Assembly (NCBI RefSeq): GCF_005938745.2 | Contig: NZ_VCBX02000001.1 | Coordinates: 491,001 to 555,000, forward strand | Length of the DNA stretch: 64,000 nucleotides | Source of the DNA: Rhodococcus sp. KBS0724 | GTDB taxonomy: Bacteria > Actinomycetota > Actinomycetes > Mycobacteriales > Mycobacteriaceae | Direction: 5' to 3' | In this document: positions 4,685 to 10,940 of the stretch, piece after piece | Position numbering within the stretch: position 1 is the stretch's first letter | Layout: every line of letters begins with the position of its first letter | Notes under the pieces: generated by a model | What the model saw: the letters and a program-made list of their open reading frames with translations, nothing else | Told to the model about the DNA's origin: nothing | Databases searched by the model: none | Position numbers and translations under genes: made by a program

Positions 4685-5161
4685 GTGGAGGCACCGCGCG
4701 ACATCGCCGTGGAGCGGGAGCGGCTGATGGACGAATTCCGTGCGTACGGTGCGACGTTCACCGAATTCAGCCATCGATTCGCGTCGTGGCTCGGCCTGCA
4801 TTCCACCGACGCAACGGCTCTGATGGAAATCACGGCTGCCGAGGAGAAGGGTGCGCCGCTCTCACCCGCACGCCTCAGCGAGCGGATCTCACTGACGTCG
4901 GGCGCCACCACCGCGTTGCTCAACCGTTTGGAGAAGGCGGGGCACATCGTCAGGACCCGCGAGAATGCGGACCGTCGCGTGGTCACGCTGCACAGCAGTG
5001 CGCATGTACAAGATCTCGCGGACGAGTTCTTCGGGCCACTTGCTGTGCGACTCGACGCCATGATGGCGAAATACCCGCCCGAATTGCTGAGTCGGTTCGA
5101 GGAATTCCTCGTCGACCTGCACTCGACGATGAACGAACACCTCGAGCAGGACACTCGCTGA
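4685..5161 (+). CDS. MarR-family transcriptional regulator
   Basis: A 158-residue winged-helix repressor. It has a helical N-terminus (residues 8-40), then LSPARLSERISLTSGATTALLNRLEKAG, the recognition helix, and the wing ENADRRVVTLHSSA with the typical D-R basic tip. The C-terminus is the dimerisation helix. The start is GTG at 4685 after an AGGAAAGGTGG purine run. It is divergently transcribed from the DHA2 exporter, so it most likely represses that exporter and itself until a ligand binds; the ligand is unknown. Confidence 0.88.
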   Translation: MEAPRDIAVERERLMDEFRAYGATFTEFSHRFASWLGLHSTDATALMEITAAEEKGAPLSPARLSERISLTSGATTALLNRLEKAGHIVRTRENADRRVVTLHSSAHVQDLADEFFGPLAVRLDAMMAKYPPELLSRFEEFLVDLHSTMNEHLEQDTR

Positions 5162-5167
5162 ACAGAA

Positions 5168-5207
5168 AAGACCGCCGCTCGACTCCGGAGAGTCGGGCGG
5201 CGGTCTT
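5168..5207. terminator. Bidirectional hairpin terminator
   Basis: AAGACCGCCG pairs with CGGCGGTCTT, and an inner CGACTC/GAGTCG segment extends the stem. It sits between the convergent MarR and siderophore-binding protein genes and can serve both. Confidence 0.75.
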
Positions 5208-5221
5208 GGCTTCGGTGACGG

Positions 5222-6253
5222 CTACTTGCCGAGCTTGGCTTGCAGGTCGTCGAGAACCAGGCCGGCACCTGTCGGGCCGAGACCCAGGAACCAGGTTTCG
5301 TCGCTGACCTCGCTGGCGCGACCGTCCTTGACGGCGTCCATCGTTGCCCACAACGGACCGGCGGTGACGGTGGTTTGACCGGTGTCCGCGGGGCTTCCGT
5401 AGCTCGAGTAGAAGATCTGATCGCCCTCAGCTTCGGTGATCGTCTCCGGGCTGACCTCGACGGCCAGTTCGTCGATGTCCTGGATTGCCGGGCGGGGGAG
5501 TCCGACGTCCTTCAGGATGACGCCGATGAAGGACAGGTTTCCGTACAGACGCAGCTTGCCGGACATGAAACGGACCAGCGAGATGGTCGGGGAACCGTCG
5601 ATCGACGCGCGGACCTCGTCGGCGTGGGCCTGGTAGTCGTTGAGGATCTGCTCGGCCTTCGTTTCCTCTCCCAGGGCGTCACCGGCGAGGAGGAAGTTCT
5701 CCTTCCACGGGAATCCGGGGCGGATGCTGAAGACCGTCGGCGCGATCGCCGCGAGCTGCGGGTACAGCTTGTCCTGGCGCAGCTTGCTGCCCAGGATCAG
5801 GTCGGGTTTCAGCGCGGTGATCGCCTCGAGGTTGAGGTTGTTGGTGGTGCCCACGTCGGGGACGCCCACCAACTTGTCAGCCAGGTACGACGGCTGGCCT
5901 GCGGCGCTTTCCGGGCTGGCGATGCCGACCGGGGTGATGCCGAGCGAGAGCACCTCGTCGAGTTCGCCGCTGTCCAGGACGACGACGCGGGTCGGCTTGG
6001 CCTCGAGTGTGACCTCTCCCAGTGCATGAGTAACCGTGCGCGGGAACTCGCCGGGAGCGGCATCACTACCGAGCTTGGCGGTTTCGGTATCGGCAGTGCT
6101 GAACAGCTTGCCGCCGGTAGCAACGTCGGTGTTTCCGTTGGCGTTGCTTCCGGCGTCGGAAGTTCCACAGGCCGTTGCGGCAAATACTGTCGCCAGCGCA
6201 ACCATGGCGACCCGGACCGACGTGCGGGTCCGAAATGAAGTACGAGTGAGCAT
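5222..6253 (-). CDS. Iron-siderophore ABC transporter binding lipoprotein
   Basis: A 343-residue periplasmic-binding protein of the FepB/FecB class (helical backbone fold). A lipoprotein signal ends in the lipobox TVFAATAC near residue 29, followed by a Ser/Asn/Gly-rich linker. The body has TRVVVLDSGELDEVLSLGITPVGI and LKPDLILGSKLRQDKLYPQL, typical of siderophore-binding proteins. No permease or ATPase gene is adjacent, so it probably works with a transporter encoded elsewhere. An IdeR box directly abuts the ATG, indicating iron repression. No Shine-Dalgarno is visible; the message may be leaderless. Confidence 0.88.
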   Translation of the reverse strand: MLTRTSFRTRTSVRVAMVALATVFAATACGTSDAGSNANGNTDVATGGKLFSTADTETAKLGSDAAPGEFPRTVTHALGEVTLEAKPTRVVVLDSGELDEVLSLGITPVGIASPESAAGQPSYLADKLVGVPDVGTTNNLNLEAITALKPDLILGSKLRQDKLYPQLAAIAPTVFSIRPGFPWKENFLLAGDALGEETKAEQILNDYQAHADEVRASIDGSPTISLVRFMSGKLRLYGNLSFIGVILKDVGLPRPAIQDIDELAVEVSPETITEAEGDQIFYSSYGSPADTGQTTVTAGPLWATMDAVKDGRASEVSDETWFLGLGPTGAGLVLDDLQAKLGK

Positions 6254-6271: not shown

Positions 6272-6421
6272 TGATATTGGACGCTTTTAGCTGGTCTCGG
6301 GACAATCGTCGCTGATCCCGACTAACGGAACCTACTCCGCAATTCGACTTCGACGACTCGGTAAAAGTGTTAGCTTCGCGAAAGACCTGCCAATTGTGTG
6401 CGAAGACACGTGAGGAACTCG

Positions 6422-7978
6422 ATGACCCTGAACATTGCCGACCTGTTCGAGGCCGTTGCCGATGCAATTCCCGATCGAACACCGCTGATCCTCGAGGAAA
6501 AGCGCCTCACCTATCGGGAGCTCGAACTGCGGTCCAACCGATTGGCACACCACCTTCAGTCCGTCGGCGTGGAACCGGGGCAGCACGTCGGAATCCACAT
6601 GAGGAACTGCGTCGAATATGTGGAAGCGCTACTGGCCTGCCTGAAGATCAGGGCTGTTCCGATCAACGTCAACTTCCGCTACACCGACGTCGAACTCGCA
6701 TACGTCTATACCAACTCGAAGATGGTGGCATTGCTGGTCGAGGACGAATTCGCGGCAATCGCACTGCGCGTTGTACCGCAGTGCGCCGAGATCGACCACG
6801 TTCTGATCGTCGGCGACGAGTATGAAACGGCACTGGCCGCAGCGTCCGACATCCGGGATTTCGGGACTCGCTCAGACGATGACCATTTCATCATCTACAC
6901 CGGCGGCACCACAGGTATGCCCAAGGGCGTTGTCTGGCGGCACGAAGACTTCTTCTTCGCTGCCCTGTCCGGAGCAAACCTCAGCGGGCCGCCGCGTCGT
7001 AGTCTCGAAGAAGTTGTGGATGCGGCGATTGCGAACACCAATCCCACCGTGCTGCTGCTCATTCCGCCGCTCATGCACGGAGCTGCCATCTACTCGCTGC
7101 TCACTGCCTTTCTGATGGGCGCGCCGCGAGTCCTGACCCGGAGCTTCGACCCCGCCGACGTGCTCCGGCTCGTCGAGGCCGAAAAGATCACCGGCATCAC
7201 CGTTGTCGGCGACGCGATCGCCCGGCCCATCGCCGACGCGATCGCCGCTGCCGACGGTAAGTACGACATCTCCTCATTGAAGCTGATCGGATCCGGGGGT
7301 GCGCTGTTCTCGCCGAACCTCAAGGAAGAGTTGAAGTCCCGAATTCCCGGGCTGGTCATCAAGGACGCATTCGGCGCCTCGGAATCCGGCAACGACGGCG
7401 TCGTCGAGTTCAGCGAAGACGGAACGAAGCGAATTCGATCCAACCCCAACATGATTCTGGTCGACGAGGAATTGCGTCGCATCGAACCGGGATCGGATAC
7501 CGTCGGCTACATCGCGCGAGCCGGACATGTGCCGATTGCCTACTTCGACGATCCGGAGAAATCAGCCGCGACGTTCCCGGTTGTCGACGGTGTCCGGATG
7601 GCAGTCCTCGGCGACATGGGAACGATGGAAGCGGACGGCACAATCGTGCTGCTCGGACGCGGTTCCATGTGCATCAACTCGGGTGGTGAGAAGGTGTACC
7701 CCGAAGAAGTGGAGCAGGCACTCAAGACTCACCCAGCGGTTTTCGATGCCCTGGTGGCGGGTGCACCCGATGCGAAATTCGGTGAGAAAGTGGCGGCGGT
7801 CGTCCAGATCCGGCCAGGCTTCGACGACGTGGAGCCAGGCGCCTTGTCCGAGCACTGCCGGATTCATGTGGCGGGGTACAAGATTCCGCGTTCGATAGTT
7901 CTGGTTCCGGAGATTCTTCGCTCACCGAGCGGAAAAGCAGATTACCGTTGGGCGAAGGAAACCGTCGCCAGGTTGTAA
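6422..7978 (+). CDS. Acyl-CoA synthetase (FadD, FadD19-like)
   Basis: A 518-residue ANL-superfamily ligase that makes acyl-CoA from a carboxylic acid, ATP and CoA. The P-loop-like YTGGTTGMPKG is at residues 160-170, the A5 region is FGASESG, and the hinge/A8 region is GDMGTMEADGTIVLLGR followed by GEKVYPEEVE. The catalytic lysine is in SPSGKADYRW near the C-terminus. Its start (TLNIADLFEAVADAIPDR) resembles FadD19, the sterol side-chain CoA ligase, and a cholesterol oxidase is nearby, but the exact substrate cannot be read. The ATG at 6422 has GAGGAA upstream. It is divergent from the siderophore lipoprotein gene. Confidence 0.85.
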   Translation: MTLNIADLFEAVADAIPDRTPLILEEKRLTYRELELRSNRLAHHLQSVGVEPGQHVGIHMRNCVEYVEALLACLKIRAVPINVNFRYTDVELAYVYTNSKMVALLVEDEFAAIALRVVPQCAEIDHVLIVGDEYETALAAASDIRDFGTRSDDDHFIIYTGGTTGMPKGVVWRHEDFFFAALSGANLSGPPRRSLEEVVDAAIANTNPTVLLLIPPLMHGAAIYSLLTAFLMGAPRVLTRSFDPADVLRLVEAEKITGITVVGDAIARPIADAIAAADGKYDISSLKLIGSGGALFSPNLKEELKSRIPGLVIKDAFGASESGNDGVVEFSEDGTKRIRSNPNMILVDEELRRIEPGSDTVGYIARAGHVPIAYFDDPEKSAATFPVVDGVRMAVLGDMGTMEADGTIVLLGRGSMCINSGGEKVYPEEVEQALKTHPAVFDALVAGAPDAKFGEKVAAVVQIRPGFDDVEPGALSEHCRIHVAGYKIPRSIVLVPEILRSPSGKADYRWAKETVARL

Positions 7979-8033
7979 GCGCCGCGCAGCGGTTTTGCAG
8001 AAGACCTGTGCTGGAGCTCGCTGGGAGTTGTGT

Positions 8034-9531
8034 GTGACTGGGAACGATGCAGGTGCGGGTCATGTGTTTGTCGTTCGTGGTCGGCTCCAATCGGTGGACT
8101 GGGATGCCGCTGTCGTGTCTACGAGCGGTAATTTTCTGCCACGCAGGCATTGGTGGCCGGTACTTGGACTCGTCGAGCCGCTCGAGAGTGCACCACCCGG
8201 AGGTCGTCGGGGTTCGGTCCTTCCCCAAAGAGGGGCGTCCAGCTTGGCTGTTGAATGTCGCTTCGCGGATATCGGTGGACTGGTTGGTGGAGGGTGTCTA
8301 CGAAGTCCTTGATGCGATTGCCGAAACTGGAATTCAGCCGGGCGGTAGCCGAGTTAAACCGCTAGTCGCATTGCCGACGTTCGGAGTGGGTTTGGGTGGT
8401 AAGGGCGCAGTTCGTGGCCAGGTGATCAAGGCATTGATCAACGCCGCTACCGTATGCGCTGACAAGTACGACTTCGATATTGCCTTTGTTGTCGCCAATT
8501 CTGCCGATTACGCTGCCTACCAATCGGTTCGGCGCGGATATCTGCGCAGTGCCGGAGTGCGGCCGCAGGTTCAGCAGTTGGCGGACCGATTACACGCCGG
8601 GGATGTCTCTTTGCTGTTGGGCGCCGGAGTCAGCATTCCCGCAGGCTTGCCGTCGTGGGACAGTCTGCTCGACCGGATTCGAAACGAAGCGCTTCCCGCT
8701 ATCGACGCCGAACTCTTCTCCGGCCTCGGAGTTCTCGATCGTGCACAACTGTTGTCCAAGGCGTTGCATCCACGCGGATTGGGTATCAGCGTTGTCGAAT
8801 TGACCGGGGGTGACGCCAAGCCGACGCTGTCACATTGCCTACTTGCTTCACTAGGTGTGACCAAAGTGGTTACTACCAACTACGACTCGCTCTACGAGAA
8901 AGCATTCGAATCTGCTCACGGTCCGGGTTCGATTTCGGTGCTACCGAGGGAAGAAGCTACCGCAGGTCGCCCCTGGATACTCAAGATGCATGGTGACAGT
9001 GGAGATCCCGACAGCATCGTGCTGAGTAGGCGCGACTTTGTCAGATACGACGCAGAGCGCCGTCCATTGGGATCAATTGTCCAATCGTTGATGGCTACCG
9101 GGCACCTAGTTGTCGTCGGTGCTTCCATGACTGACGACAACGTGCTCCGTCTGGCCCATGAGGTTCTTGCTCTCGACGAACACAACGGCCGGCAGCGAAA
9201 GCTCGGAACAGTGATAACACTGCGTCAAGACGACCTGCGAACTGAATTGTGGAGGAACGACTTCGACTATGTCGCAGCGTCGGATGCAGATAGCGATTCT
9301 ACGGCTGCTCGTGATCTCGAGATATTTCTCGACAACCTTGCAATTTTGACAAGTGTCGACACGCCATACCTTCTGGACGTGAATTACAGCGGATTGCTCG
9401 AAGGTGAAGAGATTGCACTCGCTGATTCGTTGCGTGAAGTCACCAAAATGGTCCGTTCTCTACCGGAAGAGAGTCGCGAACGATGGGGAATCCTGGAAGC
9501 CGCCCTGCGCGGGCTTGGCGCTGAACCGTAG
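8034..9531 (+). CDS. SIR2-domain protein with macro-like N-terminus, probable frameshift
   Basis: The C-terminal two thirds is a SIR2_2-type NAD-binding domain: GAGVS at 8620-8634, TTNYD at 8872-8886, and KMHGD around 8986, where the histidine is the usual catalytic base. Upstream, ALPTFGVGLGGKG (about 8370-8410) and the following helix look like the ADP-ribose-binding loop of a macro domain. The best start, GTG at 8034 with GGGAG 6 nt upstream, lies in another frame and encodes GHVFVVRGRLQSVDWDAAVV, which resembles a macro-type first strand. Joining the two halves needs a +1 shift between about 8160 and 8225. Without it, only a downstream start in the second frame (open from 8047) can be translated. 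It may be a pseudogene, a sequencing error, or programmed. Possible roles are NADase or ADP-ribosyl signalling. Confidence 0.6.
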
Positions 9532-9549
9532 GTCAGCACGTCTCGCGAG

Positions 9550-9575
9550 CGTGAGTACGGCATGATGTGCTCACG
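9550..9575 (+). terminator. Candidate terminator after the SIR2 gene
   Basis: CGTGAG pairs with CTCACG across a 14-base loop, and a TTTTT run follows at 9581-9585. The stem is short, so confidence is modest. Confidence 0.35.
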
Positions 9576-9626
9576 GTTAGTTTTTATGTGCCCGTTTCAC
9601 TATGAGTCCGACGTCGGAGATACGCC

Positions 9627-10940
9627 ATGCCTACCAAACAGCTGACTTCGGTGGATTTCGAATTGATTCCGGCGAATATGGAAACCCGGTCTACGGATGT
9701 CCTGACGATTTTCCTGTTCGATTCCGGTAGTTCGACTCCGCTCGACAAGAAGGAACTACTCGAGTTTCTCGGAGATCGGGCGTCGCGGATTCCGGAATTG
9801 CGGTGGACCGTGACCACAGTTCCCGGCGGATTCGGGTTTCCTTATTGGGTCGACTCCGCACCGTTCGATATTGCCGAGCACGTCGAAGATCATGTCGAAA
9901 TATCTTCGTGGAAAGGTGTTTTCGACTACTTCGGCGACATTGCCGCACAGATCGTCGATCCCTACGAATGCCTGTGGCGACTGCATGTCGTTCGAGGTGT
10001 TCGCGATGCCCCCGGGGTGCAGGGCGAAGCAACCGTCGTGATTCTCAAGGCGTCACACGCGCTAGGTGACGGGCACATCTACAACGCCATTGTTCACGAC
10101 CTCTTCTCGTCCACGGATCTACCCGAATTCGTTCCGGAACTCACGACGCCGAACCCGTGGTGGTCGTCTCTGAAGGGGCTCCTCGGAACTCCGCGACAAT
10201 ATGTCCGCGCTTTTCGTGCTCTGCCGGAAACCCGGAAATACGACGCGCCGGATTCCGGTGGTGGCGCCGTGACCTTTACGGATAAGCGTTCGGCCACGGC
10301 GATCATGCTCGATCTGGTGGCGATTCGCGAAGCCAAGAGAATGTGGCCAGGGGTGACGGTGACCGCAATCGCCCAGACGATCATCTCGTTGTCACTGGAA
10401 GAATATTTTGGTGACAAGAGCCCGCGCTCGATGCAGGTGATGTCCGGCGCACCCGCAGGGGCCGAGGTGCGCGGGCAAAATCATATGGGTTGCTATCACG
10501 TCGATTTGGCGATGGACAAAGAAGATATTGCGGAGCGGCTTCGTGCGATAACCACGAACAACGATGATGGCAAAGCTGGATATCCCGACGCTTATCGAGC
10601 GGTTCGTACGCTGCAATACGAACTGCCGGCAATCGCAATCAGACCTGCATTGTCGTCGGAACCGAAACTGGGAACGGTGGCGAGCAGCGTCAACCGTGGC
10701 CCTGCCGTCATGACACTGGGCGATTCCAGGATTGTGTCGACTGCGTCATTTCCGTACGTGTCGCCGCGGAGTCCGTTCAACCACGGGATCTATTCGGTGG
10801 GTGACGTGCTCGCGATCTCAGTCCTGAGCGGAACTCCCGACAGTGGTGACATCGATGTCTACGCCGCTGTCCTGGAGAAGAATGCAGCCCGCGTCCTGGC
10901 CTGCCTCGAGGAACGAAGTACTAAAGCCACGGCTCGATAG
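9627..10940 (+). CDS. WS/DGAT-like acyltransferase
   Basis: A 437-residue member of the wax ester synthase/diacylglycerol acyltransferase superfamily, which esterifies fatty acyl-CoA to alcohols or diacylglycerol. Supporting motifs: LWRLHVVRG in the position of the PLW element, a condensation-type core ASHALGDGHIYNAI, and the C-terminal half starting near SAPAGAEVRGQNHMGCYHVDL. The canonical HHxxxDG reads SHALGDG, so the first histidine is a serine while the catalytic second histidine and the DG remain. It is slightly shorter than typical Rhodococcus Atf enzymes (about 460). GGAGA precedes the ATG. The 3' end overlaps the convergent gene by 20 nt. Confidence 0.75.
   Translation: MPTKQLTSVDFELIPANMETRSTDVLTIFLFDSGSSTPLDKKELLEFLGDRASRIPELRWTVTTVPGGFGFPYWVDSAPFDIAEHVEDHVEISSWKGVFDYFGDIAAQIVDPYECLWRLHVVRGVRDAPGVQGEATVVILKASHALGDGHIYNAIVHDLFSSTDLPEFVPELTTPNPWWSSLKGLLGTPRQYVRAFRALPETRKYDAPDSGGGAVTFTDKRSATAIMLDLVAIREAKRMWPGVTVTAIAQTIISLSLEEYFGDKSPRSMQVMSGAPAGAEVRGQNHMGCYHVDLAMDKEDIAERLRAITTNNDDGKAGYPDAYRAVRTLQYELPAIAIRPALSSEPKLGTVASSVNRGPAVMTLGDSRIVSTASFPYVSPRSPFNHGIYSVGDVLAISVLSGTPDSGDIDVYAAVLEKNAARVLACLEERSTKATAR

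Follow-up and report, generated by a model that had tools for sequence, protein, structure and literature searches.

Two overlapping open reading frames (ORFs) in a 64,000-nt stretch of the genome of Rhodococcus sp. KBS0724, called here the window (C1:491001-555000; the genome comprises 7.25 Mb in 3 contigs), raise the question of whether they encode one protein and, if so, why it is read in two frames. An original prediction, made from the sequence alone, described a SIR2 enzyme fused to a macro-like domain with a +1 shift at the join. The locus looks like a macro-SIR2 fusion gene that a single frame change interrupts, and like a damaged or misread gene rather than a programmed recoding. The family to which it belongs is chromosomal, single-gene and actinobacterial, with a divergent N-terminal macro domain, a SIR2_2 domain of the NADase type and a short helical tail; its domains, its continuity in relatives, its conserved catalytic and macro positions, and its presence or absence at one chromosomal site were established by computation. 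We give a probability of about 0.6 to the whole reading, in which the window holds a frame-interrupted copy of this family, the lesion is real and recent, and the intact members hydrolyse NAD.

Continuity of the frame in relatives

The protein homologue search scored 7,997 candidates and returned 415 homologues at E ≤0.001, the best 120 of which were listed. The best among those listed, P0003 (517 aa), covers 98% of the query at 92% identity and is uninterrupted through MAGNDAGAGHVFVVRGRLESVDWDAAVVSTSG...RVRSFPKEGRPAWLL, as are P0005, P0006, and P0008. The product of the GTG 8034 frame, which starts with GHVFVVRGRLQSVDWDAAVVSTSG, encodes GHVFVVRGRLQSVDWDAAVV, and stays open until 8312, aligns with the N-termini of the intact homologues P0003, P0005, and P0006. 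These alignments bear out the earlier proposal that the two frames make up a single protein, whose N-terminal strand is the GTG 8034 product. When P0003 was compared with DNA, it matched the window's genome in two colinear pieces lying in two frames, and three other genomes (G008, G004, and G021) in one frame each; a natural start inside the second frame was not seen in the DNA of these three genomes.

A DNA alignment with R. globerulus (L013), the closest named relative at the locus (89.8% DNA identity over 9.3 kb), and with Rhodococcus sp. IEGM 1379 (L014) was colinear, and both relatives carry the gene in a single frame. The join had been predicted around 8160-8225, and the change indeed falls in the later part of this interval (Table 1). 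Because the relatives are single-frame, they settle that the first frame represents the true N-terminus and that the family is independent of recoding. The 8047 frame was rejected as the natural full gene, because the protein of close relatives also includes the part encoded by the first frame. The frame-broken copy also carries a warning for annotation, as its N-terminus is real though read in another frame.

Some database proteins start later, such as P0007 and P0016, and the N-truncated entries also include P0015, P0017, and P0043. Another of them, P0019 (277 aa), is a start mis-annotation: L070 has an intact ORF of 523 aa, to part of which P0019 is 99.6% identical. The N-truncated database proteins were rejected as proof of repeated truncation because P0019 belongs to that intact ORF, the DNA check having covered P0019 alone.

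Domains and distribution of the family

The SIR2-type NAD domain of the original prediction was confirmed by three motifs in the 8047-9531 frame (GAGVS at 8620-8634, TTNYD at 8872-8886, and KMHGD at 8983-8997) and by Pfam SIR2_2 (PF13289; E 3.7e-25, 89.1 bits against a curated cut-off of 24.5). SIR2_2 was matched in 17 of the 18 rows of A1, the exception being a 92-aa N-terminal piece. Among 102 homologues, the Asn of TTNYD was conserved in 100% and the His of KMHGD in 97%; we take these two to be the catalytic residues. The closest solved structures by profile were SeThsA (E 2e-29), ThsA 6lhx, BcThsA, and KomC, and the best PADLOC model was ThsA (E 7e-25), through its SIR2 half only (10-210 of 478). 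A predicted NADase activity is well supported by this kinship. The tail that follows the SIR2 domain has only about 60 structured residues, which are helical.

The N-terminal part resembles macro domains in its predicted fold and in a remote match of profiles, so that the lack of structural similarity that would have refuted the original prediction was not observed; the glycine-rich loop noticed earlier lies in this part. The first macro strand of P0003 starts at residue 11. The Asp and the Gly-loop residues of macro domains have roles in the ADP-ribose pocket, and the putative pocket positions, aligned with macroH2A1.1, were conserved at 96% for the Asp and 99-100% for the Gly loop. The structure matches listed for this part comprised macro domains and designed serine hydrolases, with 3v45 in the top row; such designed hydrolases were presumably built on a macro-type scaffold. 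In a search for the macro domain joined to other effectors, at least five proteins were found among the 7,998 candidates listed, all of them with SIR2_2.

Table 1 Features of the macro-SIR2 locus, in positions of the window.
Feature	Position	Strand	Remarks
ORF	8047-9531	+	494 codons; carries the SIR2_2 domain
N-terminal piece, GTG 8034 frame	8034..8186	+	First macro domain strands (GHVFVVRGRLQSVDWDAAVV); GGGAG just upstream of GTG
Frame-change zone relative to intact relatives	8186..8218	+	Approximate, from alignment to relatives
Remaining macro domain	8218..8553	+	Loop ALPTFGVGLGG at 8368-8400; borders transferred from the P0003 model
SIR2_2 domain, ThsA/KomC/DSR2-like	8557..9357	+	GAGVS, TTNYD, and KMHGD all intact
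C-terminal helical tail	9358..9528	+	Without Pfam match
Interval holding the gene, between two conserved genes	7978..9627	+	Same interval without the gene in related genome L118

The survey took in 401 genomes from the taxonomic family to which the window belongs, with three candidate stretches scored per genome, so that its counts are lower bounds. At least 64 genomes had some match and 35 were counted as carriers; the 29 others were left out, their match lying only at or after profile position 153, in the SIR2 region or at its border. A single-frame copy, starting at profile positions 2-5 and reaching at least position 456 of the 499, was present in 27 of the 35 carriers. The shortest of these, in G303, stops at 456 and was counted as intact; at this locus (L069, G303:C1, ~4686-5258) the macro-SIR2 ORF stops some 40 positions short, the next ORF clusters with the family, and the C-terminal tail of the gene is possibly frame-changed. 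The copy of G401 had one TGA in the survey listing and was open in later readings.

Eight genomes had damaged copies only, namely that of the window (G000), G313, G318, G383, G280, G238, G292, and G407. The G313 copy (L060, G313:C88:141-1620) changes frame where the macro and SIR2 domains meet, and both of its parts differ from the nearest relative mostly at third positions. The G318 copy contains stops, lies in two frames, and gave no match to the K-[LIM]-HG pattern. In G383, a net in-frame loss of about 333 nt removed most of the macro domain and the conserved Ala of GAGVS is changed. The G280 copy is decayed, G238 and G292 retain N-terminal remnants, and G407 a C-terminal one. As G274 has both an intact copy and a remnant, 36 loci were found in total, nine of them damaged. 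The motif changes in G383 and G318 fit general decay and lend no support to a stable macro-free SIR2 protein. Three genomes within a single genus, with loci L063, L064 (3051-3365), and L065, retain remnants of the N-terminus, about 30-45 codons long, that adjoin the same other gene, as if the macro-SIR2 gene had been cut off at a common site.

The gene lies in the same DNA neighbourhood in Rhodococcus L013, L014/L023, and L024, and it is missing at this site in G003 (L118), where the two flanking genes are about 0.1 kb apart. In the window, these flanking genes are presumably an acyl-CoA synthetase-like gene (6398-7978) and a wax-ester-synthase-like gene (9627-10940). A tblastn search of 72,556 plasmid records at E 1e-20 gave no match, and 50,697 phage records gave four weak matches, in the SIR2 region. 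In a survey of 396 genomes of the phylum, eight had a match: the window's genome, six with SIR2 motifs in the same ORF, and L114, which was dropped as noise (E 2.6e-4, without a SIR2 motif). GAGVS was not exactly matched in L110 and L112 of this survey.

Nature of the frame change

The original prediction had left decay, an error and programmed recoding side by side. Recoding was not supported, and a real, recent mutation is more likely than a sequencing error, probably but not decisively so. Changes private to the window were counted by simple parsimony against three reference relatives (L013, L014, and L086). They amounted to one synonymous and seven nonsynonymous changes in the 43 codons before the shift, and to 48 and 12 in the 437 codons after it (Fisher 3.4e-4), whereas the same count for R. 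globerulus gave 4/1 before and 42/18 after (p = 1). After the shift, any 43-codon stretch held at most three nonsynonymous changes, and 0 of 395 such stretches reached seven. This points to a relaxed constraint before the shift, as a real lesion would predict. The state of the surrounding genes was also compared: of 109 conserved ORFs around the locus in the window's genome, 97 were intact, five, one of them this gene, lay in more than one frame, five had stops, and two had low cover. In the reverse direction, 101 of 112 ORFs were intact, three lay in more than one frame, and eight had stops, one of which was this locus. Many of the problem ORFs apparently reflect over-long start calls.

Several points weigh against the proposed reading. 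The eight pre-shift changes fall in five codons, three of them in a single codon, and are thus not independent, so that the p value is optimistic; the first 37 codons alone give 0/4 synonymous/nonsynonymous (p 0.003). Pairwise differences in these 37 codons are 2, 2, and 14 at codon positions 1-3; the third position still prevails before the shift, and any relaxation would therefore be recent. The SIR2 part is ordinarily constrained, which implies a very young lesion, an error, or a shortened protein still in use. The comparison covered a single strain of the species, and 12 of the 109 neighbourhood ORFs, including this gene, were scored with some problem. As for the protein itself, the macro assignment rests on predicted folds plus a remote profile match, the 10 Pfam families listed for 25 members (E up to 1) including no macro family, and the NADase activity, the ligand binding and the phage role are predictions.

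The change could also be a sequencing or assembly error; the gene would then be intact in the organism and yield the full macro-SIR2 protein. We regard this as a serious possibility though an improbable one. The change amounts to one small difference in length within a G-rich stretch, the remaining gene is open with its SIR2 motifs intact, and a young lesion and an error would be indistinguishable in the SIR2 part; however, the nonsynonymous excess before the shift is found in the window only, and 97 of the 109 neighbouring ORFs are intact.

It is unlikely that the lesion is real and that a shortened protein, started in the second frame, still serves as a SIR2 enzyme although its macro domain is incomplete. 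The constraint on the window's SIR2 part would agree with such a use, and the second frame offers many candidate starts, among which TTG 8392 has a GGAG at 5-base spacing. However, TTG 8392 lies inside the macro glycine loop and only the last macro part would remain. The G383 copy, in which most of the macro domain was lost with the SIR2 frame left open, would offer a parallel, but it is altered in the otherwise 98%-conserved Ala of GAGVS, which suggests decay of SIR2 after the loss of the macro domain; N-truncated database entries, for their part, can be mis-annotated starts, as seen for P0019. Finally, programmed +1 frameshifting to yield the full protein is barely credible: the frames do overlap and are each open across the join, but the relatives, one of them 92% identical, are single-frame, the shift is not conserved in homologues, and the first frame has no stop near the join.

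Proposed working and comparison with known systems

The intact member most probably works as a self-contained effector that depletes NAD and is switched, on or off, by a macro domain that binds a nucleotide. In this scheme, the macro domain would bind an ADP-ribose-type nucleotide, and the bound domain would switch on, or help to assemble, the SIR2 domain, which would hydrolyse NAD+ so that an infected cell might stop growing before phage release. The SIR2 relatives make a role in phage defence plausible. The lesion of the window strain would split the macro domain, and the intact protein is therefore probably not made. Tentatively, the intact members could be one-protein defence switches fusing effector modules that are split between two Thoeris classes, the macro sensor and the SIR2 NADase, the window and several relatives being natural sensor-broken variants. 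Such switches could be self-amplifying, because ADP-ribose, a product of NAD hydrolysis, would bind to the sensor of the same protein. Antiphage SIR2 enzymes vary in their mode of activation, and a chromosomal macro-SIR2 family without an evident partner gene would allow ADP-ribose-type activation or restraint of a SIR2 NADase to be tested within one polypeptide.

Partner genes were looked for within about 5 kb of the gene at 28 loci, with a crude ORF caller and clusters judged by eye; 77 of 210 neighbour ORFs were scanned, and 25 of 134 PADLOC and 25 of 72 Pfam families were among the matches listed. The neighbours vary between lineages, and a conserved operon partner was rejected because they differ among the 28 loci. 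The sole neighbour recurring across unlike arrangements is an SMC/AAA ATPase of 816-895 aa, in four genomes (L017/L072 and L019/L073 being counted as one genome each). It is accompanied by a 121-127-aa protein in L017, L071, L072, and L080, with none called in L019 and L073; the ATPase and the small protein are a candidate defence pair. The ATPase of L071 (1396-4223) gave partial matches to PADLOC mad3 (E 4e-24) and LmuB (E 3e-23).

A fixed TIR partner is unlikely because 15 of the 27 carriers of an intact copy have no TIR gene by two models, TIR_2 and ThsB_TIR. TIR_2 was found in 10 of the 27 carriers versus 12 of 27 non-carriers (9 versus 12 over the curated cut-off), the non-carriers being a hand-picked set, unmatched to the carriers, that drew 21 members from the window's genus; TIR genes were rejected as a requirement on these counts. 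ThsB_TIR occurred in six of the 27 carriers, with none in the window's genome. The window's genome has two TIR_2 genes far from the locus, at G000:C1:4821020-4821364 and, within a 537-aa open frame on a different contig, at G000:C3:50354-50725.

These counts bear on a further explanation, that of a Thoeris-type effector activated by a nucleotide from an unlinked TIR protein, which we consider rather improbable. It would agree with the SIR2 part being closest to ThsA and KomC, with the two TIR_2 genes elsewhere in the window's genome, and with the binding of ADP-ribose by the macro domains of TM-macro ThsA, as stated in PMC11204291. However, TIR genes are distributed as described above, and no TIR was found among the recurrent neighbours or among the 25 of 72 families listed for the scanned ORFs. 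It is more improbable still that the protein writes or erases ADP-ribose on targets, in the style of SirTM and its macro partner, rather than depleting NAD. The loop that follows the second strand has no glycine run of the kind typical of hydrolytic macro domains, and the SIR2 part groups with SIR2_2/ThsA/DSR2 proteins, although the coupling of sirtuin and macro domain is the plan of the SirTM systems in PMC9503650 and PMC12700824.

Among known systems, the ThsA SIR2-SLOG protein of type I Thoeris resembles the family in its SIR2 half, but here no SLOG half was matched, a macro domain stands at the N-terminus, and the window's genome has no ThsB_TIR; no TIR gene of the ThsB kind adjoins the locus, as one does in Thoeris, the two TIR_2 genes lying far from it. 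KomC of KomBC (HAM-SIR2) has SIR2-sized chains of 264-278 aa and the DSR2 SIR2 NADases have chains of about 1000 aa, and with both the macro domain described here falls outside the matched regions. TM-macro ThsA shares a macro domain in an NAD-linked defence protein and, according to PMC11204291, its macro domains bind ADP-ribose and oligomerise upon binding; it is the nearest precedent found for an activating macro role. However, it has membrane helices and no SIR2 domain, whereas the family described here has no N-terminal membrane helices, its first strand starting at residue 11. The structure and profile matches listed for the family included no TM-macro ThsA chain. The SirTM-macro pairs likewise couple a sirtuin to a macro domain, as coupled genes in PMC9503650, but they are separate genes or belong to another sirtuin class and act on protein targets (PMC9503650 and PMC12700824).

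No functional study of a macro-SIR2_2 fusion was recognised among the papers that the literature searches listed, as judged by title and start of abstract. The same domain pairing is nevertheless on record: according to the legend of its Extended Data Fig. 2, PMC12700824 marks in a tree those SIR2_2 proteins that have an additional domain such as Macro, with no functional description met in the part of that paper available. The SIR2_2 and Macro combination is thus already recorded in that tree, and the window adds a damaged copy of it.
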